40,229 nt of DNA from Thauera aminoaromatica S2. GTDB lineage: Bacteria > Pseudomonadota > Gammaproteobacteria > Burkholderiales > Rhodocyclaceae. Below, piece after piece: positions 24,947 through 40,229 of the stretch. Location: positions 1-40,229 of the forward strand of contig NZ_AMXD01000019.1 of assembly GCF_000310185.1 (NCBI RefSeq). The letters are read 5' to 3'. The notes below the pieces were generated by a model. That model was not told the origin of the DNA, searched no databases, and saw only the letters and a program-made list of their open reading frames with translations. The position numbers and the translations under genes were made by a program. How positions within the stretch are numbered: position 1 is the stretch's first letter; every line of letters begins with the position of its first letter.

Positions 24947-27776
<2,830 letters not shown>

Positions 27777-27844: not shown

Positions 27845-28456
27845 ATGTCTGATCGAAACAGCGACAACTCCAAACAAGAAAATTCGGGCGGCCTGTGGGC
27901 ACGCCTGCGCCGCCCTTCCGCCAAGTCGCTGGGCGGCCTGTTGGCTGTCGGATTCATTGTGGGCGTGCTGTTCTGGGGCGGCTTCAACACCGCGCTGGAG
28001 GCCACGAACACCGAGAAGTTCTGTATTTCCTGCCACGAGATGTATGACAACGTGTACCAGGAGTACAAGCAGACGATCCACTACAGCAACCGGACCGGGG
28101 TGCGCGCGACCTGCCCGGACTGCCATGTTCCGAAAGAGTGGACGCACAAGATGATCCGCAAGGTTCAGGCGTCCAAGGAGCTGTGGGGCAAGATGGTCGG
28201 CACCATCGACACGCGCGAGAAGTTCGAGGCCAAGCGCCTGGAGCTGGCGCGCAACGAGTGGAAGCGGATGAAGGCGGTGGACTCGCGCGAATGCCGCAAC
28301 TGCCACAGCCTCGAGAGCATGAATCCCGAGGTTCAACGGCAGCGCGCGCGCAAGCAGCACGAGATTGCGAAGGAAGACAACATGACCTGCATCGACTGCC
28401 ACAAGGGCATTTCCCACAATAAGCCGGCAGGCATGACCGAGGCGGACGAGGAGTAA
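27845..28456 (+). CDS. nirT: NapC/NirT family tetraheme cytochrome c
   Basis: Membrane-anchored periplasmic tetraheme cytochrome that takes electrons from quinol; NirT in Pseudomonas stutzeri serves cd1 nitrite reduction. The 203 residues have one N-terminal membrane anchor (about 30-50: [18 protein letters not shown]) and four CxxCH sites at C60-H64 (CISCH), C90-H94 (CPDCH), C150-H154 (CRNCH) and C182-H186 (CIDCH). Its place directly after nirS supports a role as NirS electron donor and not a nap gene. Confidence 0.94.
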
Positions 28457-28504
28457 GATCCCTCGTGCATCACAGGCCAACCCAAGCACAGCGAGGATAT
28501 GACG

Positions 28505-29377
28505 ATGAAGAAGAACCTGATTGCCGGCGCCGTCGGTGCTCTCCTGGCTATCGGTACGGGTAGCGCGCTCGCAGCCGCGCCCGACTGGAGCAAGGTCCAG
28601 GGCAAGGACATCACCGCCTTCTACCCCGGCGTGTCGCCGCTGGAGTGGATCCAGAAGGGTACCGAGCACGGTGGCGCGCGCGCGCTCAAGAAGGGCGAGA
28701 CCTGTGCCGACTGCCACAGCGACGAAGCGGGTGACATGGGCAAGAAAATGGCCAGCGGCCAGAAGATCGAGCCCAGTCCGATCCCCGGCAAGGCCGCCTT
28801 CATTCCGGTGAAGGTGCAGGCCGCGCACGACGGCGAGAACCTCTACATCCGCTTCTCCTGGAAGCAGCCGGCCGCCTCGGGTGGGGCGAAGATGGACGAG
28901 AAGAACCCGGTCAAGATCGCGTTCATGCTCGAGTCTGGCGGCAAGGTCGAACTCGCCGACCAGGCGGGTTGCTGGGCGACCTGCCACACCGATTCGCGCA
29001 CCATGCCCGGTGCGGACGACGCCAAGACGAAGTACGTCAAGGGCGGCTCGGTCGCCGAGGGTAAGTTCTACGACCTCTACCAGTGGCGCAGCGGCGAGAA
29101 CAAGGGCTACAACGGCTACGTCGCCGAAAAGCGCGTGATGGAAGGCGGCAACGCCCTGGTCAGCGCCGAAGGCAAGAAGGACGGCGACAACTGGTCGGTG
29201 GTGTTCACCCGCAAACTCGCTGCGGGCGACGGTGACGTGAAGCTCGAGTCGGGCAAGGCCTACAACTTCGGCTTCGCGATCCACGACGACAACGCGGCGG
29301 GTCGATTCCACCACGTTTCGCTCGGCTACAAGCTCGGCCTCGACACCGACGGCCACATCAAGGCGGCCAAGCAGTAA
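28505..29377 (+). CDS. nirB: Periplasmic cytochrome c-552 (NirB type, EB_dh-like heme domain)
   Basis: A 290-residue exported cytochrome, in the position held by the diheme cytochrome c-552 NirB in the P. stutzeri nirSTB cluster (not the assimilatory siroheme NirB). A signal peptide ends ALAAAP. Heme sites are C67/C70/H71 (CADCH) and C156/C160/H161 (CWATCH), the latter with three residues between the cysteines. The body resembles the heme-binding domain shared by cytochrome c-552 and the gamma subunits of DMSO-reductase-like enzymes (IPVKVQAAHDGENLYIRFSW; YNFGFAIHDDNAAGRFHHVS). No molybdoenzyme partner is nearby. ATG 28505 is preferred over 28499 because of spacing to GAGG. It is likely an electron shuttle to NirS. 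Confidence 0.82.
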   Translation: MKKNLIAGAVGALLAIGTGSALAAAPDWSKVQGKDITAFYPGVSPLEWIQKGTEHGGARALKKGETCADCHSDEAGDMGKKMASGQKIEPSPIPGKAAFIPVKVQAAHDGENLYIRFSWKQPAASGGAKMDEKNPVKIAFMLESGGKVELADQAGCWATCHTDSRTMPGADDAKTKYVKGGSVAEGKFYDLYQWRSGENKGYNGYVAEKRVMEGGNALVSAEGKKDGDNWSVVFTRKLAAGDGDVKLESGKAYNFGFAIHDDNAAGRFHHVSLGYKLGLDTDGHIKAAKQ

Positions 29378-29417
29378 TCCGGTCCGATCCCGCCCATGCC
29401 CCTGGGCGGTGTTCGAT

Positions 29418-29463
29418 ACGGCGGAAGCATCCGGCGAACCCGGGGCTTCCGCCGTTGTCCTTT
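29418..29463 (+). terminator. Hairpin after nirB, probable terminator
   Basis: acggcggaag (29418-29427) pairs perfectly with cttccgccgt (29446-29455) around an 18-base loop, followed by tgtccttt. A smaller hairpin (cgccca/tgggcg, 29391-29408) precedes it. Together they would end a nirSTB transcript. Confidence 0.55.
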
Positions 29464-29479
29464 GCGATGGATCCATCGC
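29464..29479. promoter_or_regulatory. Perfect 16-base palindrome upstream of the cupredoxin gene
   Basis: gcgatggatccatcgc is fully self-complementary and ends 38 bases before the cupredoxin start. It is unlike an FNR box. It could be an operator for an unidentified regulator or simply a foldback; no protein is assigned. Confidence 0.4.
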
Positions 29480-29517
29480 GACTGCGTGGTCGCGTGGGCA
29501 TGAAACGGGAGATTTCC

Positions 29518-29847
29518 ATGAACGCCAGACTCGTTCCGGCAAGTCTGTTCGCGGTCGCAATCGGGCTTTCCGCGGCCGTTCCGGCGCAAGCCGCCGAACA
29601 TCAGGTCGTGGTGGAGAAATACGCCTTTTCGCCGATGGAGTTGCGCATCAAGCGTGGCGACACCGTGACCTGGATAAATAACGAAAAGCGGGTGAGTCAT
29701 TCGGTGCTGCTGATCGGCCGCAACGAGGAGTCGGAGCGCTTTTTTCCCGGCGAGAAGTGGTCGCGCGCCTTCCCGGAGGCCGGGCGCTTCGAGTACCGCT
29801 GCGGACCGCATCCGGAAATGCTCGGCGTGGTGATCGTCGCCGAATGA
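29518..29847 (+). CDS. Small periplasmic cupredoxin (type 1 copper, amicyanin-like loop)
   Basis: A 109-residue exported blue-copper protein. The signal peptide ends VPAQAAEH. The mature domain keeps the plastocyanin/azurin fold pattern (YAFSPMELRIKRGDTVTWIN) with copper ligands H61 (VSHSVLL), C95, H98 and M101 (CGPHPEM). The C-x2-H-x2-M loop is the short amicyanin spacing, unlike pseudoazurin (C-x2-H-x4-M). ATG 29518 has GGGAG at good spacing; an upstream in-frame ATG at 29500 is less likely. It occupies the place of nirM (cytochrome c-551) in other nir clusters, so a role as electron donor to NirS is inferred. Confidence 0.88.
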   Translation: MNARLVPASLFAVAIGLSAAVPAQAAEHQVVVEKYAFSPMELRIKRGDTVTWINNEKRVSHSVLLIGRNEESERFFPGEKWSRAFPEAGRFEYRCGPHPEMLGVVIVAE

Positions 29848-29956: not shown

Positions 29957-29998
29957 TTGATGCGAGTCAAGGTTTCGACCCGGTCGAGGCCCCATGCT
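29957..29998 (+). promoter_or_regulatory. DNR/FNR-type box and -10 element of nirC
   Basis: TTGAT-GCGA-GTCAA at 29957-29970 is a near-perfect DNR/ANR-type box. CATGCT at 29993-29998 is at the class II distance, and resembles CATACT in the nirS promoter. The nirC ATG lies at 30030. It likely drives nirCF-DL-GH. Confidence 0.75.
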
Positions 29999-30029: not shown

Positions 30030-30413
30030 ATGAAGATTCCGCCACTCCTCGCCCACGCCGTCGTCTTCCTCGGCGCAGCGCTCGTCTCCGCTTATGCCGC
30101 AGCCTCCGGGCACGTCCCGGTCGAGCCCGCTCCGGCGCGTGCGCGCGAACTGGTCCACATCGTCCGCCAGGATTGCGGTTCCTGTCATGGCCTGACCTTC
30201 AAGGGCGGGCTCGGCCCCGCACTGACCGCCGAGGCGCTTGCCGACAAGCCGGCCGAGGGCCTTGTGGCCACCATCGTCGGTGGCCGTCCGGGGACGCCGA
30301 TGCCGCCTTTCCAGTCCATCCTCTCCGAAGCCGAGGCGGAGTGGATCGTGTATTGGCTGATGCGCGGTTTTCCCGCCGATGCCGGCCTGCCGCAGGCCCC
30401 CGCGCGCAACTGA
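30030..30413 (+). CDS. nirC: NirC cytochrome c (c55X family)
   Basis: Small periplasmic monoheme cytochrome c of the NirC/c55X type, proposed to pass electrons during heme d1 maturation or to NirS. The 127-residue precursor has a signal peptide ending around AYAAASG and heme ligands C49, C52 and H53 (CGSCHG). The family pattern GPALTAEAL and GRPGTPMPPF supplies the Met axial ligand. The start is set from the signal peptide (MKIPPLLAHA); ATG 29994 would add 12 non-signal residues. nirF follows after 104 bases without another gene. Confidence 0.88.
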   Translation: MKIPPLLAHAVVFLGAALVSAYAAASGHVPVEPAPARARELVHIVRQDCGSCHGLTFKGGLGPALTAEALADKPAEGLVATIVGGRPGTPMPPFQSILSEAEAEWIVYWLMRGFPADAGLPQAPARN

Positions 30414-30517: not shown

Positions 30518-31726
30518 ATGTCTTGCCGTGAAGTTCGTCTCGCACCGCCCGCCCTATGGGGCGTGGTCCTCTCCGCCATGGTCGTGCTGCTGTCGGCCTG
30601 TTCGAGCGTGCCGCCGGTCGCCGTGCGCGGCACCGGCGACCTCGGCGTGGTGATCGAGCGTGCCGACGGCAAGGTCAAGGTGATCGAGACCACTGGCCGC
30701 AGCGTGCTGGCCACCGTGGATGGCCTGGGCGATCTCTCCCACGCCTCGGTGGTTTTCTCGCGCGATGGCCGCTACGCCTTCGTGTTCGGGCGCGACGGCG
30801 GGCTGACCAAGGTCGATCTGCTGGCGCGCCGGATCGTCGGCCGCAAGGTCCAGGCGGGCAATGCGATCGGCGGCTCGATCTCGCACGACGGCAGCCTGGT
30901 GGTGGTGCAGAACTACGAACCGGGCGGCATCAAGGCCTTCGACGCCAACACGCTCGAGCTCGTCGCCGATGTGCCTGCGACCACGGACGACGGCACCCGC
31001 TCCAAGGTGGTGGGCCTCGCCGACCTCTCGGGCAAGCGCTTCATCTATTCGCTGTTCGAGGCGGGCGAGATTCGCATCACCGACTTCTCCGACCCGAAGA
31101 ATCCGCTGACCCGGCGTTTTGCCGGCGGCAAGCAGCCCTACGATGCACTGGTCACGCCCGATGGCCGGTACTACATCGCCGGCCTGTTCGGCGAGGACGG
31201 CCTTGCCCTGATCGACCTGTGGAACCTCGACAAGGGCAGCCGCAAGATCCTCTCCGGCTACGGTCGTGGCGAGCAGCCCCTGCCGGTGTTCAAGATGCCC
31301 CACCTGCGCGGCTGGTCGATCGCCGGCAATCGGGCCTACCTGCCCGCCATCGGTCGCCACGAGGTGCTGGTGGTCGACACCGCCACCTGGCAGGAGGTCG
31401 ATCGCATCCAGGTGAAGAGCCAGCCGGTGTTCGCCATGGCGCGCCCCGACGGGCGCGAGATCTGGGTGAACTTCGCCTTCCCCGACAACGGCTGGGTGCA
31501 GGTCATCGACACCGTCTCCGGCAAGGTCACCGACACCCTGCAGCCGGGCCGCGGCATCCTGCACATGGAGTTCCTCTCCAAGGGCCACGAGATCTGGCTG
31601 TCGGCGCGCGACGACAACAAGGTCGTGATCTACGACACCGCCAGCAAGCAGCCGATCGGCGGCTTCGAGTCGGCGAGCCCGAGCGGCATCTTCTTCACCA
31701 CGCGCGCCGCGCGCACGGGCTTCTGA
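30518..31726 (+). CDS. nirF: Heme d1 biosynthesis protein NirF (lipoprotein)
   Basis: Beta-propeller protein related to the d1 domain of NirS, required at a late stage of heme d1 formation in the periplasm. The 402-residue product has a lipobox LSAC at 25-28 (Cys28), agreeing with the lipoprotein nature of NirF in Pseudomonas aeruginosa. Repeated blades are visible (SRDGRYAFVFGRDGGLTKVD; LVTPDGRYYIAGLFGEDGLA). There is no CxxCH motif, as expected. It overlaps nirDL by one base. Confidence 0.94.
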   Translation: MSCREVRLAPPALWGVVLSAMVVLLSACSSVPPVAVRGTGDLGVVIERADGKVKVIETTGRSVLATVDGLGDLSHASVVFSRDGRYAFVFGRDGGLTKVDLLARRIVGRKVQAGNAIGGSISHDGSLVVVQNYEPGGIKAFDANTLELVADVPATTDDGTRSKVVGLADLSGKRFIYSLFEAGEIRITDFSDPKNPLTRRFAGGKQPYDALVTPDGRYYIAGLFGEDGLALIDLWNLDKGSRKILSGYGRGEQPLPVFKMPHLRGWSIAGNRAYLPAIGRHEVLVVDTATWQEVDRIQVKSQPVFAMARPDGREIWVNFAFPDNGWVQVIDTVSGKVTDTLQPGRGILHMEFLSKGHEIWLSARDDNKVVIYDTASKQPIGGFESASPSGIFFTTRAARTGF

Positions 31727-32775
31727 TGCCGCGCCAGGCCATCTTGCCCGCGGCGCTCGACGCCACCGGCTTCCGCCTGCTCAACGAGTGGCAGCGCGAC
31801 TTCCCGCTCGAGCCGCGACCTTTCGCACGCATCGCGCAGGCGGTGGGCGCCGCCGAGGAAGACGTCATCGCGGCCTACCGCGACCTGAGCGCGCAAGGCC
31901 TGGTGAGCCGGGTGGGCGCGGTGTTCGCCCCGCGTCGCCTGGGTGCGAGCGCACTCGCGGCCCTGGCCGCGCCGCCGGAGCGCCTGGAGGAGGTCGCCGC
32001 GCGCGTCACGCGCGAGCCGGCGATCAACCACAACTACCAGCGCGAGCATCGCTACAACCTCTGGTTCGTGGTCACCGCGGCCTCGCGTGCGCAACTCGAA
32101 GAGGTGGTCGCCGGCATCGAGCGCGACACCGGCTGTGCGGTCATCGTGCTGCCGCTGGAAGAAGAGTTCCACATCGACCTGGGCTTCGACCTCAAGGCGG
32201 GCGGGGAGGGGCGGCGACCGCATGCCGACGCGCGCAGCGACGAGCCGATCGCACGGGGCGACGCCGACGGCGGCTGCGCGTTGCCTGCGCTCGAACGCAA
32301 GCTGATCGGCGCGCTGCAGGGCGGCCTGGTGCTTGAGGCGCGGCCCTTCGCCACGCTGGCGGCGCGCGTCGGCCTCACCGAGGGCGAGGTGATCGCCTGC
32401 ATCGCGCGCTGGGTGGACGAGGGCTTGATCCGCCGCTTCGGCGTGGTCGTGCGCCACCATGAGCTCGGCCTCGAGGCGAACGCCATGTGCGTGTGGGACG
32501 TCCCCGACGCCGAGGTCTCCGGGCTTGGTCGCCGGCTCGCGCAGGAGGCGGCGGTCACGCTGTGCTACCGCCGCCGCCGCGTGCTGCCCGGCTGGCCGTA
32601 CAACCTGTTCTGCATGATCCACGGCAGCGCGCGCGAGGAGGTGCTGGCCGCGCGGGCGGATCTCGCCGCGCGCCTCGGCCTCGACCGCCATCCGCACGCG
32701 GTGCTGTTCAGTTGCCGGCGTTTCAAGCAGACCGGCGCGCGCTATCTCGACGCCAAGGATCTCGCCCATGTCTGA
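31726..32775 (+). CDS. nirDL: NirD-NirL fusion, siroheme decarboxylase subunits
   Basis: Two Lrp/AsnC-like modules in one 349-residue chain. NirD-type is about residues 1-150 (NEWQRDFPLEPRPFARIAQA; NHNYQREHRYNLWFVVTA), and NirL-type about 188-349 (LIGALQGGLVLEARPFATLA; YRRRRVLPGWPYNLFCMIHG). They are joined by a Gly/Arg/Asp-rich linker. NirDL with NirG and NirH decarboxylates siroheme to 12,18-didecarboxysiroheme, the step after NirE-derived siroheme. The HNYxREH and CYRRxRxLPxWPYNLF boxes are the conserved substrate-site His/Arg motifs. It overlaps nirG by eight bases. Confidence 0.92.
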   Translation: MPRQAILPAALDATGFRLLNEWQRDFPLEPRPFARIAQAVGAAEEDVIAAYRDLSAQGLVSRVGAVFAPRRLGASALAALAAPPERLEEVAARVTREPAINHNYQREHRYNLWFVVTAASRAQLEEVVAGIERDTGCAVIVLPLEEEFHIDLGFDLKAGGEGRRPHADARSDEPIARGDADGGCALPALERKLIGALQGGLVLEARPFATLAARVGLTEGEVIACIARWVDEGLIRRFGVVVRHHELGLEANAMCVWDVPDAEVSGLGRRLAQEAAVTLCYRRRRVLPGWPYNLFCMIHGSAREEVLAARADLAARLGLDRHPHAVLFSCRRFKQTGARYLDAKDLAHV

Positions 32776-33271
32776 AGCCCAGCCGGCCGCGTCGGTCGGC
32801 CGTCGTGGCGTGGCCGCGAAGCGTGCGCCCGACGACACCGACCGTCGCCTGATCAATGCCATCCAGGGCGAGTTCCCGCTCTCCGAGCGCCCCTTTGCCG
32901 AGGTCGGCGTCCTGCTCGGCCTGGCGGAGGACGAGGTGATCGCGCGCCTGCAGTCGCTGCTCGACGACCGCGTGCTGACCCGTTTCGGGCCGATGTACCA
33001 GATCGAGCGCATGGGCGGCGCCTTCTGCCTGGCCGCGATCGCGGTGCCCGAGGCGCAGTGGACGAGCGCGGTGGAGGCGGTCAATGCCTTCCCCGAGGTC
33101 GCGCACAACTACCGCCGCGAGCACGCGCTCAACATGTGGTTCGTGCTCGCCACCGAGACGCCGGAGGGCATCGCCGACTGCGCGCGCCGCATCGAGGCCG
33201 CTACCGGCTTGGTGGTGCATCTGTTCCCCAAGGAACGCGAGTACTTCGTCGAGATGAGGCTGGAGGCCTGA
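32768..33271 (+). CDS. nirG: Siroheme decarboxylase subunit NirG
   Basis: A 167-residue Lrp-like protein of the NirD/G/H/L family. It shows DRRLINAIQGEFPLSERPFA (helix-turn-helix part), FGPMYQIERMGGAFCLAAIA, and the NYRREHALNMWFVLATE box matching the NirD/NirG half of the enzyme. Its start lies inside the end of nirDL and its stop TGA overlaps the nirH ATG, so the three are tightly coupled. It partners NirH in siroheme decarboxylation (family knowledge). Confidence 0.9.
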   Translation: MSEAQPAASVGRRGVAAKRAPDDTDRRLINAIQGEFPLSERPFAEVGVLLGLAEDEVIARLQSLLDDRVLTRFGPMYQIERMGGAFCLAAIAVPEAQWTSAVEAVNAFPEVAHNYRREHALNMWFVLATETPEGIADCARRIEAATGLVVHLFPKEREYFVEMRLEA

Positions 33272-33840
33272 TGGTGCAAGGCATGTCCGGGAACGGAGCC
33301 CTCGCGCGGGCGGATGCGCAGGATGCCGCGGGTGCCGGCATGGATGAAGCTGCCCTTGCGGAGTTCGACCGCCGCCTCGTGCTCGCCACCCAGGGCGGCC
33401 TGCCGCTGGTTCCACGCCCCTACGCCGCGCTGGCCGAGACGCTCGGCGTGGCCGAGGGCCGCGTGCGCGAGCGCCTCGCCGCCATGCTCGCCGACGGCCG
33501 CATTCGCCGCATCGGCGCGGTGCCCAACCACTACGCCATCGGCTACACCGCCAATGGCATGAGCGTGTGGGACATCGACGCCGCGGTGATCGACGCGGTC
33601 GGCGAGCGCGTCGGTGCGCTCGACTTCGTCACCCACTGCTACCGCCGCCCGCGCCATCTGCCCGACTGGCCCTACAACCTGTTCGCGATGGTGCACGCCG
33701 CCAGCCACGAGGCCGCGCTCGCGCGCGTGGAAGAGATCGCCGCGCTGATCGCGGCGGAGTTTCCTGGTGCCTGCCGCAACCGCGACGTGCTGTTCTCGTC
33801 TGGCATCCTGAAAAAGACGGGCCTGCGCATCGGCGCCTGA
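33271..33840 (+). CDS. nirH: Siroheme decarboxylase subunit NirH
   Basis: Fourth paralog of the set, 189 residues. After a variable N-terminus of about 25 residues comes FDRRLVLATQGGLPLVPRPY, the IRRIGAVPNHYAIGYTANGM strand, and the box CYRRPRHLPDWPYNLFAMVH shared with NirL. The ATG overlaps the nirG stop; starts at 33283 or 33340 would remove only the variable tail. nirJ follows after 113 bases with its own candidate promoter. Confidence 0.9.
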   Translation: MVQGMSGNGALARADAQDAAGAGMDEAALAEFDRRLVLATQGGLPLVPRPYAALAETLGVAEGRVRERLAAMLADGRIRRIGAVPNHYAIGYTANGMSVWDIDAAVIDAVGERVGALDFVTHCYRRPRHLPDWPYNLFAMVHAASHEAALARVEEIAALIAAEFPGACRNRDVLFSSGILKKTGLRIGA

Positions 33841-33889: not shown

Positions 33890-33931
33890 TTGACGCGCAT
33901 CATTTTCATTCGCGGGCGCCTCGGGTGAAAT
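33890..33931 (+). promoter_or_regulatory. Possible DNR/FNR-type box and -10 element of nirJ
   Basis: TTGAC-GCGC-ATCAT at 33890-33903 matches the consensus at eight of ten conserved positions. TGAAAT at 33926-33931 sits at the same spacing as in the nirS and nirC promoters. It leaves a short leader of about 16 bases before the nirJ ribosome site and ATG. Confidence 0.5.
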
Positions 33932-33953
33932 GGCCAGCATTCAGGAGGCTCCC

Positions 33954-35162
33954 ATGTTCCGCATCTCCCAATTCATCCGCGAGCTCGACCACCCCACGCC
34001 TGCCGGCCCCCGCCGCAACCCGCCAGGTCCGGTGGTGATCTGGAACCTGATCCGGCGCTGCAACCTCACCTGCGAGCACTGCTACTCGATCTCGGCGGAC
34101 AAGGATTTCCCCGGCGAGCTGAACACACAGGAAGTCTTCAAGGTCATGGACGACCTCAAGGACGCACGCGTGCCGGTGCTGATCCTGTCCGGTGGCGAGC
34201 CGCTGCTGCGCCCCGACATCTTCGACATCGCCCGCCGCGCCAAGGGTATGGGCTTCTACGTCGGCCTGTCGTCCAACGGCACCCTGATCGACGAATCCAA
34301 CATTGATGCGATCGACGAGATCGGCTTCGACTACGTCGGCGTCAGCCTCGACGGCATCGGCGCCACGCACGACCACTTCCGCCGCAAGCAGGGCGCCTTC
34401 GAGGCCTCGATGCACGGCATCCGCCTGTGCCGCGAGCGCGGCATCAAGGTCGGCGTGCGCTACACGATGACCGAGGGCAACGCCCACGACCTGCCCGCGC
34501 TGTTGAAGCTGGTCGAGGACGAGGCCATCGACAAGTTCTACTTCTCGCACCTGAACTACGCCGGGCGCGGCAACAAGAACCGCGCCGGCGACGCCCGCCA
34601 CCGCACCACCCGCGAGGCCATGGAGCTGCTTTTCGAGACCTGTCTCGACCTGCACCGGCGTGGCATCGACAAGGACTTCGTCACCGGCAACAACGATGCC
34701 GACGGCCCCTTCCTGCTGCACTGGGTGCAGCGCCGCTTCCCCGACAAGGCCGCCCACATCGAGGCCAGGCTGCGCCAGTGGGGCGGCAACGCCAGCGGGG
34801 TGAACGTCGCCAACATCGACAACCTGGGCATCGTGCACCCGGACACCATGTGGTGGCACGTGCCGCTTGGCAACGTGCGCCAGCGCGCCTTCGGCGAGAT
34901 CTGGAACGACCTGTCGAACCCGCTGCTCGCCGGCCTCAAGCAGCATCCGCGCAAGCTGGAGGGGCGCTGCGGCGCGTGCAAGTACCTGGAGATCTGCAAC
35001 GGCAGCTCGCGCGTGCGCGCGGAGCAGGTCACCGGCAACCCGTGGGCGGAGGACCCGGCCTGCTACCTCTACGACGAGGAGATCGGCGTGAATCCGGCAG
35101 ACTACGGCGCCGAGCGCGTCGTCACGACGCCCTGGACCCGCATCGACAAGGTTTCCGCATGA
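33954..35162 (+). CDS. nirJ: Heme d1 biosynthesis radical SAM protein NirJ
   Basis: Radical SAM/SPASM enzyme that replaces two propionate side chains of didecarboxysiroheme on the way to heme d1. The 402 residues contain the SAM cluster C36, C40 and C43 (CNLTCEHCYS), the GGEP motif in LILSGGEPLLRPD, and a C-terminal Cys-rich SPASM region (CGACKYLEICNGSS, then WAEDPACYLYDEE). ATG 33954 is chosen because AGGAGG lies eight bases upstream; ATG 33930 lacks this. It overlaps nirN by four bases. Confidence 0.95.
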   Translation: MFRISQFIRELDHPTPAGPRRNPPGPVVIWNLIRRCNLTCEHCYSISADKDFPGELNTQEVFKVMDDLKDARVPVLILSGGEPLLRPDIFDIARRAKGMGFYVGLSSNGTLIDESNIDAIDEIGFDYVGVSLDGIGATHDHFRRKQGAFEASMHGIRLCRERGIKVGVRYTMTEGNAHDLPALLKLVEDEAIDKFYFSHLNYAGRGNKNRAGDARHRTTREAMELLFETCLDLHRRGIDKDFVTGNNDADGPFLLHWVQRRFPDKAAHIEARLRQWGGNASGVNVANIDNLGIVHPDTMWWHVPLGNVRQRAFGEIWNDLSNPLLAGLKQHPRKLEGRCGACKYLEICNGSSRVRAEQVTGNPWAEDPACYLYDEEIGVNPADYGAERVVTTPWTRIDKVSA

Positions 35163-36802
35163 AGATCCGCGCCTCGACCCTGACCGGCCTGTTCGCACTC
35201 GCCGGTGCACTGGTCGTCTTGCCTGCCGCCGCTTCGCCGGACAAGGCCGTCGCTCGGGCCGCGTCCGGGGCAGCGGCGTCGCCGGCTGCCATCGACGTAC
35301 CCGCGCTCTACGCGCAGCATTGCGCGGCCTGCCATGCGCCCAATCGCCTCGGAGCGATGGGGCCCGCGTTGCTGCCCGACAACCTGGGCCGCCTGCGCAA
35401 GAGCGAGGCTGCCAAGGTGATCGCCGAGGGCCGGCCCGCGACCCAGATGGCCGGCTTCGCCGCGCAGCTGGGCAAGGACGAGATCGCCGCGCTCACCGAG
35501 TGGATCTACACCCCGGTGGTGCCCGAGCCGCGCTGGACCGACGAGGACATCCGCGCCTCGCGCGTCGTCCATGTCGACACCGCGACCCTTTCCGACAAGC
35601 CGGTGTTCGACGCCGACCCGCTCAACCTCTTCCTGGTGGTGGAGGCGGGCGACCACCACGTCAGCGTGCTCGACGGCGACAGGCTCGAGCCGATCCACCG
35701 CTTCCAGTCGCGCTTCGCGCTGCATGGCGGGCCCAAGTTCGCCGCCAACGGGCGCTACGTGTTCTTCGCCTCGCGCGACGGCTGGATCACCAAGTTCGAC
35801 CTGTGGAACCTGAAGGTCGTGGCCGAGGTGCGTGCCGGCATCAACACCCGCAACGTCGCCGCATCGCCCGACGGCACCCACGTCGCGGTGGCCAACTACC
35901 TCCCCAACACGCTGGTGCTGCTCGACGGCGAGCTGAACCTGGTCAAGACCATCCCGGCGATGGACCGCGACGGCAAGAAGAGCTCGCGGGTGTCGGCGGT
36001 GTACGACGCCACGCCGCGCCAGTCCTTCATCGCCGCGCTCAAGGACGTCGGCGAGGTGTGGGAGATCAGCTACACCAAGGCGGTCGAGGACATCCCGGTC
36101 AGCTACATCCACGACTACACACAGCGCGAAGGCAGCTTCATTCCCGGTTACCTCAACCCGCGCCGCACCATCCTCGCCGAGGTGCTCGACGACTTCTTCT
36201 TCACCCAGGACTATTCCGAGCTGATGGGGGCCTCGCGCGAGGGGGTCGGACAGGTGGTGAACCTCGACGTGCGCAAGAAGATCGCCAATCTGCCGCTTGA
36301 CGGCATGCCGCACCTGGGCTCTGGCATCACCTGGGAATGGCAGGACCCCGCCGCCGGTCCGGGCGCCAGGCCGCGCACGGTGATGGCGAGCACCAACCTC
36401 AAGGCGGGCGAGGTCACCGTGATCGACATGAAGACCTGGGAGGTGGTGAAGCGCATCCCCACCCGCGGCCCGGGCTTCTTCCTGCGCAGCCACTCCAGCA
36501 GCCGCTATGCGTTCGTCGATTCGATGATGAGCGCGGAGGCCAAGCACATCCTGCAGGTCATCGACAAGCAGACGCTGGAGGTGGTGCGCGAGATCACCGG
36601 TGAGCCGGGCAAGACGCTCGCCCACGTCGAGTTCACCCGCGATGGCCGCCATGCGCTCGCCAGCCTGTGGGAGGACGATGGCGCGGTGATCGTCTATGAC
36701 GCGCGGACCCTCGAGGAGGTCAAGCGCCTGCCGATGAGAAAGCCTGTGGGCAAGTACAACGTATGGAACAAGATCACGCGCGAGGAAGGCACCAGCCACT
36801 GA
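35159..36802 (+). CDS. nirN: NirN, c-type cytochrome of heme d1 maturation
   Basis: Periplasmic paralog of NirS that binds dihydro-heme d1 and catalyses the last desaturation in heme d1 synthesis in P. aeruginosa. The 547-residue precursor has a signal peptide ending LPAAAS, an Ala-rich stretch, then heme c ligands C55, C58 and H59 (HCAACHA). A d1-type propeller follows (EAGDHHVSVLDGDRLEPIHR; LPLDGMPHLGSGITWEW; GPGFFLRSHSSSRYAF). Its start overlaps the nirJ stop. It is somewhat longer than P. aeruginosa NirN. It ends the nir cluster. Confidence 0.93.
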   Translation: MKIRASTLTGLFALAGALVVLPAAASPDKAVARAASGAAASPAAIDVPALYAQHCAACHAPNRLGAMGPALLPDNLGRLRKSEAAKVIAEGRPATQMAGFAAQLGKDEIAALTEWIYTPVVPEPRWTDEDIRASRVVHVDTATLSDKPVFDADPLNLFLVVEAGDHHVSVLDGDRLEPIHRFQSRFALHGGPKFAANGRYVFFASRDGWITKFDLWNLKVVAEVRAGINTRNVAASPDGTHVAVANYLPNTLVLLDGELNLVKTIPAMDRDGKKSSRVSAVYDATPRQSFIAALKDVGEVWEISYTKAVEDIPVSYIHDYTQREGSFIPGYLNPRRTILAEVLDDFFFTQDYSELMGASREGVGQVVNLDVRKKIANLPLDGMPHLGSGITWEWQDPAAGPGARPRTVMASTNLKAGEVTVIDMKTWEVVKRIPTRGPGFFLRSHSSSRYAFVDSMMSAEAKHILQVIDKQTLEVVREITGEPGKTLAHVEFTRDGRHALASLWEDDGAVIVYDARTLEEVKRLPMRKPVGKYNVWNKITREEGTSH

Positions 36803-38233: not shown

Positions 38234-38995
38234 TCAACCCAGGCTTCGGCGCAGGCGGCCGATGTCGGGGATGTGGATGGTGCGGCCTTCGACCTGGATG
38301 AGGCCTGCGCTGGTGAGTTCGCTGAGGATGCGGGAGAAGTGTTCCTGGGTGAGGTTGAGCCGCGAGGCGATCGTGCCCTTGCTGGTGGGCAGGCGCAACG
38401 ACACCGAGCCTTCGGCCACCCCGTCGCCGTCACGCTCCTCTTCGCGCAGCAGATAGCCCACCACGCGGTCGCGACCCGAACGCAGCGAGTAGCTCTCGAC
38501 GTCGGCCATCAGCAGATGCAGTCGCTGGGCCAGGCCGGCGATGATCTTGCGGCAGAACAAGGGATCGCCCGACATTTCCTCGAAGAAGATCTGCTTGCCG
38601 ATGTGCAGCAGGGTGGCGTCGGTCAGTGCCTGCGCCATCACGACGTAGGGCTTTTCCATGAACATCACCGCCTCGCCGAAGCTGCGTCCGGCGTAGAGGA
38701 TGTCGACCACCTTCTCGTTGCCCTCGGCCGAGGTGAAGGCGAGCTTGATCTGGCCGTCGAGGATGAGGTGGAAGCCGTGGCAGGGGTCGCCGCGATGGAA
38801 CAGGATCTCGCCGCGCGCGACCCGTACCTCGCGCACACCACGCGCGAAGCGGACGATATCCTCGCAGGCGAGGCCGTTGAAAAGCGGCGCGCGCGCGAGC
38901 AACCGGCACAGGCGGTCGATCTCCGTGACCGGGCTGGCGGGGGAGGAATCGATCCGGACAGGTCTTTCCCCGACCGGGGTGGCGTTACGAGGCAT
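38234..38995 (-). CDS. dnr: DNR-type Crp/Fnr regulator (NO-responsive)
   Basis: Crp/Fnr-family regulator of about 253 residues. The effector domain (HRGDPCHGFHLILDGQIKLA; VVDILYAGRSFGEAVMFMEK) and helix-turn-helix (GTIASRLNLTQEHFSRILSE) match the DNR/NnrR group that turns on nir and nor genes in response to NO, probably through heme. The three early cysteines do not have the FNR spacing, so an Fe-S cluster is not expected. It is encoded four bases after norD; starting at ATG 39019 instead would overlap norD by 20 bases. It is the natural candidate to bind the boxes at nirS, nirC and nirJ. Confidence 0.88.
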   Translation of the reverse strand: MPRNATPVGERPVRIDSSPASPVTEIDRLCRLLARAPLFNGLACEDIVRFARGVREVRVARGEILFHRGDPCHGFHLILDGQIKLAFTSAEGNEKVVDILYAGRSFGEAVMFMEKPYVVMAQALTDATLLHIGKQIFFEEMSGDPLFCRKIIAGLAQRLHLLMADVESYSLRSGRDRVVGYLLREEERDGDGVAEGSVSLRLPTSKGTIASRLNLTQEHFSRILSELTSAGLIQVEGRTIHIPDIGRLRRSLG

Positions 38996-38999
38996 GGCT

Positions 39000-40229
39000 T
39001 CAGCGGGTGAGCTGGGCATAGAACATGGGCAGGCGTGCGGGCAACTCGTCGGGTTGGCGGATCACCGCGTAGCCGGCCGGACCGAAGAGGTGCGGCAGGT
39101 AGCTTGCGCCTTCGCGGTCGATGGTAACGCAGAACGGCACCACACCGCGGTTGCGTGCCTCGACGACGGCGACGCGGGTGTCCTCGATGCCGTAGCGGCC
39201 GTCGTAGAGATCGAGGTCGTTGGGTTTGCCGTCGGACAGGATCAGCAGGATGCGGCGTGCGGCGCGCTGGCGGTCGAGGATCGTGGTGGCGTGGCGGATC
39301 GCCGCGCCCAGGCGGGTGTAGTAGCCCGGCTTGATCGCCATGATGCGGCCGCGCGCGCGGTCGTCGAAGCGCTGGTCGAAGTCCTTGAGGCGGTGGAAGC
39401 GCACGTTGCTGCGCTTGACCGAGGAGAAGCCGCATAGCGCGAAGCTGTCGCCGGTGGCGAGCAGGGCTTCGCCGAAGAGCAGCAGCGAGTCGCGGATGAC
39501 GTCGATCACACGCGCCTCGGAGGAGACCCAGGAATCGGTCGACAGCGACAGATCGGCCAGCGCCAGGCAGGCGAGGTCGCGCTCGCGCTTCTCGAGCGAG
39601 AGGTAGAGCTGATCGGACGGATGGTGGCCGGTGGCGCGGTCGGTGGCGGCGCGCACCACCGCGTCGAGGTCGAGCTCGGTGCCGTCGACCTGCGCCTTGA
39701 GCCAGCGTCTGCCCGGAGTGAGCGCGGCGAACTGGCGGTGCAGCCGGCGCGCAGTGCGGCGCAGGTGCTCGGGCAGGGCGCAGGGGGCGGCGCGCGGGTC
39801 GTGGATCGAGGGGGTGAGCTCGGCGAGGCGGACGTGGTCCTCGAGCAGCAGGTTCTTGCGGTAGTCCCACTCGGGCAGCGGGATGCCGTCGCCGAGCACG
39901 ACGTCGTCCTCGGCAGCCGAGGGCAGGTCGAGGTCGAAGCGCACCTTGGAGGCGACGCGCTCGCCGTCGCGGGTGATCGACAGGTGGTCGAGGTTGGCGG
40001 CGGCGTCGGCGGCGTTGTCGTCGGGCTCGTCGTCGGTGCTGCGCTGGACCTTGATGAACTCCGCCACCGACAGCAGGCTCTCGGCGCGGAAGGGGATGAT
40101 CATGCCGTGCTTTTCCGGCATTTTCTCCTGGCGCTCGACACGGTGGGCCTGGCGGCTGCTGTCCTTGCCGGGACGGCTGGCGCCGGCCTCGCCGAGCTCG
40201 CCGCCCGCGCCGGCGCCGCCGCTGCCGCC
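39000..40229 (-). CDS. norD: NorD, NO reductase accessory protein with VWA domain (5' end outside window)
   Basis: C-terminal 409 residues of NorD; the frame is open to the window edge. A Gly-rich segment at the edge and an acidic stretch (STDDEPDDNAADAAANLDHL) precede a von Willebrand A domain with a MIDAS-like DLSLSTDSW and a later LILSDGKPNDLDLYDGRYGI. It ends with the typical AGYAVIRQPDELPARLPMFY. NorD, usually with the MoxR-type ATPase NorQ, is needed for assembly/activation of the cytochrome bc NO reductase NorCB. norQ and norCB are expected to the right. It is followed closely by dnr. Confidence 0.92.
   Translation of the reverse strand, partial: GGSGGAGAGGELGEAGASRPGKDSSRQAHRVERQEKMPEKHGMIIPFRAESLLSVAEFIKVQRSTDDEPDDNAADAAANLDHLSITRDGERVASKVRFDLDLPSAAEDDVVLGDGIPLPEWDYRKNLLLEDHVRLAELTPSIHDPRAAPCALPEHLRRTARRLHRQFAALTPGRRWLKAQVDGTELDLDAVVRAATDRATGHHPSDQLYLSLEKRERDLACLALADLSLSTDSWVSSEARVIDVIRDSLLLFGEALLATGDSFALCGFSSVKRSNVRFHRLKDFDQRFDDRARGRIMAIKPGYYTRLGAAIRHATTILDRQRAARRILLILSDGKPNDLDLYDGRYGIEDTRVAVVEARNRGVVPFCVTIDREGASYLPHLFGPAGYAVIRQPDELPARLPMFYAQLTR

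Follow-up and report, generated by a model that had tools for sequence, protein, structure and literature searches.

Which protein hands electrons to cytochrome cd1 nitrite reductase (NirS) in a nir cluster that carries, in the position of the cytochrome c-551 gene (nirM, here also c551), a gene for a small copper protein instead? The question is raised by the window, the whole 40,229-nucleotide stretch of Thauera aminoaromatica S2 DNA analysed here. Among nirS denitrifiers, Thauera, Aromatoleum/Azoarcus and related bacteria are important in wastewater and sediments, and the identity of the NirS donor bears on the competition between nitrite and nitrate reduction, and hence on the release of nitrite, NO and N2O.

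The cupredoxin gene and its cluster

The window genome (G000; 4.28 Mb in 317 contigs) has the gene order nirS-nirT-nirB-cupredoxin-nirC-nirF-nirDL-nirG-nirH-nirJ-nirN, with nnrS also in the cluster, as judged from Pfam and NCBIfam profiles and synteny. On the plus strand, nirS (26094–27776; PF02239, 508 bits), which encodes the presumed electron acceptor, is followed by nirT for a NapC/NirT tetraheme cytochrome (27845–28456; TIGR02161, 317.3 bits against a cut-off of 310.6) and nirB for a c-552-like protein with an EB_dh domain, one CxxCH and one CxxxCH motif (28499–29377; PF09459, 148.3 bits). Beyond the cupredoxin gene, and on the same strand, come nirC for a monoheme cytochrome c (30030–30413; PF13442, 48.1 bits), nirF for a d1-type propeller of heme d1 synthesis (30518–31726; PF02239, 348.9 bits), the siroheme decarboxylase fusion gene nirDL (31726–32775; NF040707 and NF040708 both above cut-off), nirG (32768–33271), nirH (33271–33840), nirJ (33930–35162; TIGR04051, 631 bits) and nirN (35159–36802; PF02239 plus a cytochrome c domain). 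The profiles agree with the order that the first-pass annotation had given from nirS to nirDL; the labels of the nirG and nirH ORFs come from that annotation and synteny.

Divergent from nirS, on the minus strand, is a gene for a nirE/cobA-type tetrapyrrole methylase (24947–25840; PF00590, 182.3 bits). The far end of the window has genes for a Crp/Fnr-family regulator (38234–39019) and, on the minus strand, a VWA-domain protein (39000–40121) that presumably resembles NorD and whose relatives adjoin nirS in several other loci. In NirB, the second heme motif has the form CxxxCH instead of CxxCH, both in the window and in 59 of the 60 nirB stretches checked.

The place of nirM, downstream of nirS and nirTB and ahead of nirC, is occupied by the gene for a nir-linked cupredoxin precursor of 109 residues (29518–29847, plus strand, stop codon included), identified by its ORF translation, Pfam and NCBIfam profiles, PDB matches and a structural model. 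The protein scores above the cut-offs of PF00127 (Copper-bind; E = 1.6e-9, 38.5 bits against 21.2) and PF13473 (Cupredoxin_1; 30.3 bits against 27), and has all four type-1 copper ligands, H61, C95, H98 and M101, the last three in an amicyanin-like C-x2-H-x2-M loop (C95-G-P-H98-P-E-M101), much as first described. Its sequence contains no CxxCH heme motif, and a PDB fold search with its AlphaFold2 model (mean pLDDT 89.1) returned a cupredoxin fold rather than that of a class I cytochrome, leaving it with neither the heme site nor the fold of NirM. A signal peptide at about residues 1–26 is probable by eye, and pLDDT is low across about the first 20 residues, as a signal peptide would give; we infer from its sequence that the protein is exported and loaded with copper.

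Amicyanins are the best PDB matches of the protein by sequence, and an amicyanin is the best structural match of the model. A true amicyanin, plastocyanin or pseudoazurin is ruled out by scores below the cut-off of each equivalog profile (TIGR02657, 44.9 bits against 110.2; TIGR02656, 37.1 against 87.85; TIGR02375, 21.9 against 109.85), and the curated halocyanin cut-off is likewise not reached. Amicyanin is tied to methylamine dehydrogenase, for which a search of the window genome (PF02975) gave no match, control genomes being equally silent. By cupredoxin sequence the closest named relatives are in Thauera, with up to 85% identity in T. phenylacetica, and every match in a plasmid collection was under 60% identity.

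Linkage to nirS and alternation with c-551

Cupredoxins like that of the window lie beside nir genes in many other genomes. In a collection of genome contigs, nir genes surround the cupredoxin match in 25 of the 80 loci kept, with only a weak NirJ-like match in a further locus (L091); nirB is the recognised gene directly upstream in all 25, so the placement of the cupredoxin is not due to chance. These loci come from Thauera, Aromatoleum, Azoarcus, other Rhodocyclaceae, betaproteobacterial bins, one Chromatiales bin and one Kangiellaceae bin. A cupredoxin match was obtained in 46 of 150 genomes from the window's family and is strong (E ≤ 4.4e-20) in 35; all 35 have NirS, compared with 93 of the 150 overall (Fisher P = 3.2e-9, a significance that is overstated as the loci are related). 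Directly after nirB or nirS stand 33 of the 35 strong cupredoxins, 30 of them downstream of nirS in the census described below and three (G004, G045 and G121) following nirB on contigs that stop short of nirS; the other two (G083 and G129) are unlinked to nir. The first-pass annotation had proposed a search for this gene beside nirS elsewhere, and the pairing, found in the family and in some more distant proteobacteria, is more general than a reader of the window could have known.

An alignment of 66 rows (64 nir-linked cupredoxins and two unlinked ones from the window's family; 63 distinct sequences, because some genomes came from two collections) has invariant ligand columns. R58, F76, P77, F85 and Y93 are invariant too and E56-K57 nearly so, giving the pattern N-x-EKR-x2-H ... 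FP-x-E ... Y-x-CGPHPEM; the row of L169 is degenerate, and the letter at its H61 column means little. The C-x2-H-x2-M spacing is kept in 61 of the 63 sequences, the distance from His to Met being longer in L292 and L294. Conservation of the ligands, together with synteny, refutes the possibility that the ORF at 29518–29847 is spurious. In a tree with 50 other cupredoxins, Paracoccus relatives included, a branch with an SH-aLRT support of 99 separates the nir-linked proteins from these others. The tree is built on few columns and leaves many forks unresolved; its sequences were collected by searches that started from the window protein, and it omits L169, L055 and five sequences of fewer than 75 residues (L068, L071, L075, L093 and L105). 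Judged by these comparisons of sequence, the nir-linked cupredoxins form a distinct group that travels with nirS.

Two observations concern the edges of this group. Its unlinked members, L143 and L144, come from the genomes G083 and G129, which have nirSTB with no adjacent cupredoxin. About 1.1 kb downstream of nirS in L169 (genome G046), only the C-terminal part of a cupredoxin is recognisable and residues near the copper loop are altered, which probably marks a decaying copy; L118, nearest to L169 in the NirS tree, has no cupredoxin within 2.4 kb.

We classified nirS loci by the genes found up to 2.4 kb downstream of nirS on its own strand. In the family, 121 of 125 NirS places were classified (four short fragments were left out), and the 114 informative loci comprise 31 with the cupredoxin, 27 with c551, 56 with neither and none with both. 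From a sample of the class, 62 of 76 other NirS places were fetched and 14 were not; here the 58 informative loci divide into 7, 2, 49 and again none. Widening the class census to 3.6 kb raised the cupredoxin count to ten, because of an apparently duplicated nirB or a second nirS, and still gave no locus with both. Nor do the two genes occur together anywhere in the annotated stretches, c551 being found in none of the 38 cupredoxin loci and the cupredoxin in none of the 29 c551 loci (Fisher P = 4.3e-4 for the missing double class, only a guide, as the relatedness of the loci overstates it). In 25 of the 27 family c551 loci the cytochrome gene lies within 0.2 kb of nirS; it is 1.7 kb away in L205 and L210, where a dnr-like gene intervenes. 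Because 56 of the 114 family loci have no linked donor gene, 15 of these with both nirT and nirB, NirS can manage without one.

Some loci have more complex arrangements. In L134, L135 and L152, a second nirS (58–60% identical to that of the window) lies about 2.2 kb past a nirT-nirB-cupredoxin block and is followed by nirC; the block starts with the first nirS in L134 and L135. In the class sample, nirB is apparently duplicated downstream of nirT in L285, L288, L289, L291 and L292.

Cupredoxin and c551 also exchange places among related NirS lineages. One NirS clade includes both nirS-cupredoxin-nirC (L131, L132, L133 and L153) and nirS-c551-nirC (L128 and L179), and c551 also adjoins nirS in L129 and L130, of the same clade as L131. 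The order is nirS-c551-nirT-nirB in L232, L233 and L234, and nirS-nirT-nirB-cupredoxin-nirC in L294, which belongs to the same starred group of the NirS tree. A direct counterpart of the window is L235, with the order nirS-nirT-nirB-c551-nirC and a NirS that is 85% identical to the window's and is placed among cupredoxin loci in the tree. Solved c-551 chains matched by the c551 of L235 include 1cor, 1cch and 1fi3, the last two being P. stutzeri structures. With rows that have neither gene ignored, the NirS tree needs at least six changes between cupredoxin and c551; this tree of 182 rows was made by a quick method without bootstrap, it leaves out L229 (a cupredoxin locus with a short NirS) and it carries a long-branch warning among outlying class rows. 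The idea that the cupredoxin holds the place taken elsewhere by a c-551 gene is thus upheld, both by the lack of double loci among 114 family and 58 class loci and by the counterpart L235.

Regulatory sites suggest different transcription units for the two genes. In the window, one FNR/DNR-type box (TTAATTCACATCAA, one mismatch; 26004–26017, plus strand) ends 76 bases ahead of nirS, and another (TTGATGCGAGTCAA, one mismatch; 29957–29970, plus strand) lies 109 bases past the cupredoxin gene and 59 ahead of nirC; none with up to two mismatches was found between nirS and the cupredoxin gene. Across the 38 cupredoxin loci, boxes with at most one mismatch occur ahead of nirS in 21 (0.2 expected), in the gap from the cupredoxin gene to its downstream neighbour in nine (0.1 expected) and in the gap that separates it from its upstream neighbour in one (0.2 expected), the expectations coming from shuffles that keep base composition only. 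In the contig collection, 12 of the 25 loci with nir genes were examined; a box follows the cupredoxin in 10, and the 200 bases ahead of it are free of boxes in all 12. In L235, an FNR-type box lies ahead of c551. From these positions, the cupredoxin probably ends the nirS(TB) transcript and the c551 of L235 probably begins the next one, so that the exchange would be no simple swap in place. No terminator-like site was found on the plus strand between 25800 and 30600. A strong hairpin in the gap between nirB and the cupredoxin gene (29418–29455, plus strand; fold of 29378–29517, z = −3.11) may be an RNA processing or stability element.

Possible roles of the cupredoxin

As read from sequence, the copper site is intact, the gene is linked to nirS and, in the loci examined, it excludes c551 downstream of nirS; a role as donor to NirS fits this evidence, which suggests such a function. 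The best reading, and one that we consider reasonably probable, is that the operon itself encodes, in the position of nirM, a blue-copper protein that donates electrons to cytochrome cd1. The protein would be a periplasmic carrier dedicated to the NirS respiratory unit. Electrons would pass from the quinol pool through the bc1 complex and/or NirT/NirB to the type-1 copper of the cupredoxin, and from there through the heme c of NirS to heme d1 and nitrite, and the protein would fill the role of Pseudomonas cytochrome c-551 (NirM). Both the electron transfer to NirS and the identity of the reductant of the cupredoxin are steps that we infer. A c-551-like cytochrome encoded elsewhere may work in parallel, as Paracoccus cytochrome c550 does beside pseudoazurin.

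A bolder form of the donor reading seems doubtful to us. It makes the cupredoxin the main small donor to cd1, perhaps even the sole one in some genomes, has copper supply gate NirS and NosZ, and supposes repeated mutual replacement of cupredoxin and c-551, so that the minimum of six changes on the NirS tree would stand for several such replacements. If it were true, NO formation by an iron enzyme would depend on copper and would be gated along with the copper enzyme NosZ. The first-pass suggestion that donors switch with copper supply is unsupported.

Alternatively, the cupredoxin could be a partner of NirT/NirB, moving electrons between NirB and NirS, Nor or Nos, and not a general substitute for NirM, which we regard as unlikely. 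Gene neighbourhood is the main argument for such a partnership: the recognised gene just ahead of the cupredoxin is nirB in 34 of the 38 loci, and nirS in four. Where nirB is present, the family census gives 27 loci with cupredoxin, 3 with c551 and 16 with neither (n = 46), and the class census 7, 1 and 5 (n = 13); where it is absent, c551 is found in 24 of 68 family loci and 1 of 45 class loci, with neither gene in 40 and 44, and the cupredoxin is rare (4 of 68 and 0 of 45). A contribution of NirTB to supplying cd1 with electrons is considered in PMC13086519, and a pair of diheme cytochrome and cupredoxin is reported from Acidithiobacillus (PMC5982212). However, four loci read nirS-cupredoxin-nirC with neither nirT nor nirB within 2.4 kb, 21 of the 59 informative nirB loci have neither cupredoxin nor c551 within that distance (although L285 and L292 have the cupredoxin further on), and 4 of the 59 have c551 instead.

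Quite unlikely, in our judgement, is a cupredoxin that serves as a redundant or conditional donor, with a c-551-like cytochrome encoded elsewhere, or NirC, as the main donor to NirS. Candidates for that part exist. The window genome has a c-551-like gene outside the nir cluster (L149; C129:3463–3771) whose product is 54% identical to P. aeruginosa c551, and total loss of c-551 is thereby refuted for this genome. Each of the 35 family genomes whose cupredoxin match is strong also has a c-551 match (E ≤ 1e-3), weak in G093 (7.9e-7; 52% complete), G012 (1.1e-9) and G058 (2.2e-5), the last two being cupredoxin genomes that are at least 96% complete and have no strong match. The absence of nirM that the first-pass annotation led one to expect thus holds for the nir cluster, but not for the genomes, where the match usually lies elsewhere; loss of heme donors in cupredoxin genomes is not shown. 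In P. aeruginosa, NirM and NirC are both reported donors (excerpt of PMC13168839). Against the idea of redundancy, no FNR-type box with up to two mismatches was found in the roughly 460 bases ahead of the L149 gene, whereas the nir unit has one, and the copper ligands of the cupredoxin have been kept across deep divergence. As for NirC, it acts with NirF in heme d1 synthesis according to the same excerpt of PMC13168839, a role with which donor activity would still be compatible.

The two kinds of protein also differ in charge. The median core charge is +4 for nir-linked c551 (29 loci, mostly basic) and −3 for the cupredoxin (63 sequences, mostly acidic), with +4 for the c551-like protein of the window genome and −1 for the window cupredoxin; given these opposite tendencies, a common docking surface is not evident, although the L235 c551 has a charge of −2.

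Only two other PF00127 members were found in the window genome, L150 (C1:130419–130931) and L151 (C134:7592–8104). They are similar 170-residue cupredoxins among ORFs that by eye resemble copper-resistance genes, with CusF-like and OprM-like neighbours and, beside L150, a multicopper-oxidase-like ORF. A pseudoazurin profile search of the genome gave nothing over the cut-off, and a second azurin or pseudoazurin was rejected on these grounds. That the window cupredoxin is itself a copper-handling or stress protein (for chaperoning, for sequestration or for protection against NO or nitrite), co-regulated with nir by happenstance, is highly improbable: it is predicted to be a small exported copper-type protein, and both of its PF00127 relatives in the genome keep copper-resistance-like company, but its type-1 Cys-x2-His-x2-Met ligand set is typical of electron carriers, its own recognised neighbours are nir genes, and downstream of nirS it is mutually exclusive with an electron-carrying cytochrome.

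Under the preferred reading of an operon-encoded donor to cd1, the recurrent exchange of heme for copper beside a conserved enzyme suggests that copper can take over the job of an iron protein at NirS, and pairs such as the window and L235 are natural material for the study of cd1 donor specificity and copper dependence.

Comparison with known systems

Among the matches listed in a search of open-licence literature, no paper on a nir-linked cupredoxin gene was found by title or start of abstract. Hasegawa 2001 reportedly treats, going by its title, NirM and NirC as donors in P. aeruginosa, and Moir 1993 and Pearson 2003 are in the reference list of PMC6872814, the paper on Paracoccus cd1 donors.

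A close parallel in position is NirM, encoded in nirSTBMCFDLGH of Stutzerimonas and in nirSM of P. aeruginosa: it shares with the cupredoxin the slot between nirB (or nirS) and nirC, and it is a presumed NirS donor, as we propose for the cupredoxin. The two differ in that the cupredoxin would bind type-1 copper instead of heme c and has an unrelated fold, and in that it probably closes the nirSTB unit, whereas the c551 of L235 has an FNR-type box ahead of it. In the available text of PMC13086519, nirMCFDLGH lies directly downstream of nirS with an identical organisation in all strains of that study, and nirTB goes with NirS clade 1b and is absent from clade 1a. The same text links nirTB-bearing clusters to nitrite accumulation in Stutzerimonas and proposes, while calling the matter unresolved, that nitrate may require NirTB to halt nitrite reduction.

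Amicyanins have the nearest solved structures and share the C-x2-H-x2-M loop; the window cupredoxin differs from them in scoring below the amicyanin cut-off, in being tied to nirS and in being separated in the tree from the Paracoccus relatives L072 and L077. Paracoccus pseudoazurin, whose gene presumably sits outside its nir cluster, is alike in being a cupredoxin that serves cd1, a role demonstrated in vivo there and proposed here, but it belongs to another cupredoxin family, and the window gene lies inside the nir cluster. Electrons reach Paracoccus cd1 from cytochrome c550 or pseudoazurin, as stated in an excerpt of PMC6872814. Some Chloroflexi NirS proteins carry fused cupredoxin domains and so likewise join a copper domain to cytochrome cd1; going by the description in the available part of PMC8756737, they are set apart by being a single ORF, whereas the window cupredoxin is a separate gene in the place of nirM. 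Cupredoxin donors to cd1 are already known in the form of pseudoazurin, to which the window protein would add one encoded inside the nir cluster, in the slot of nirM.
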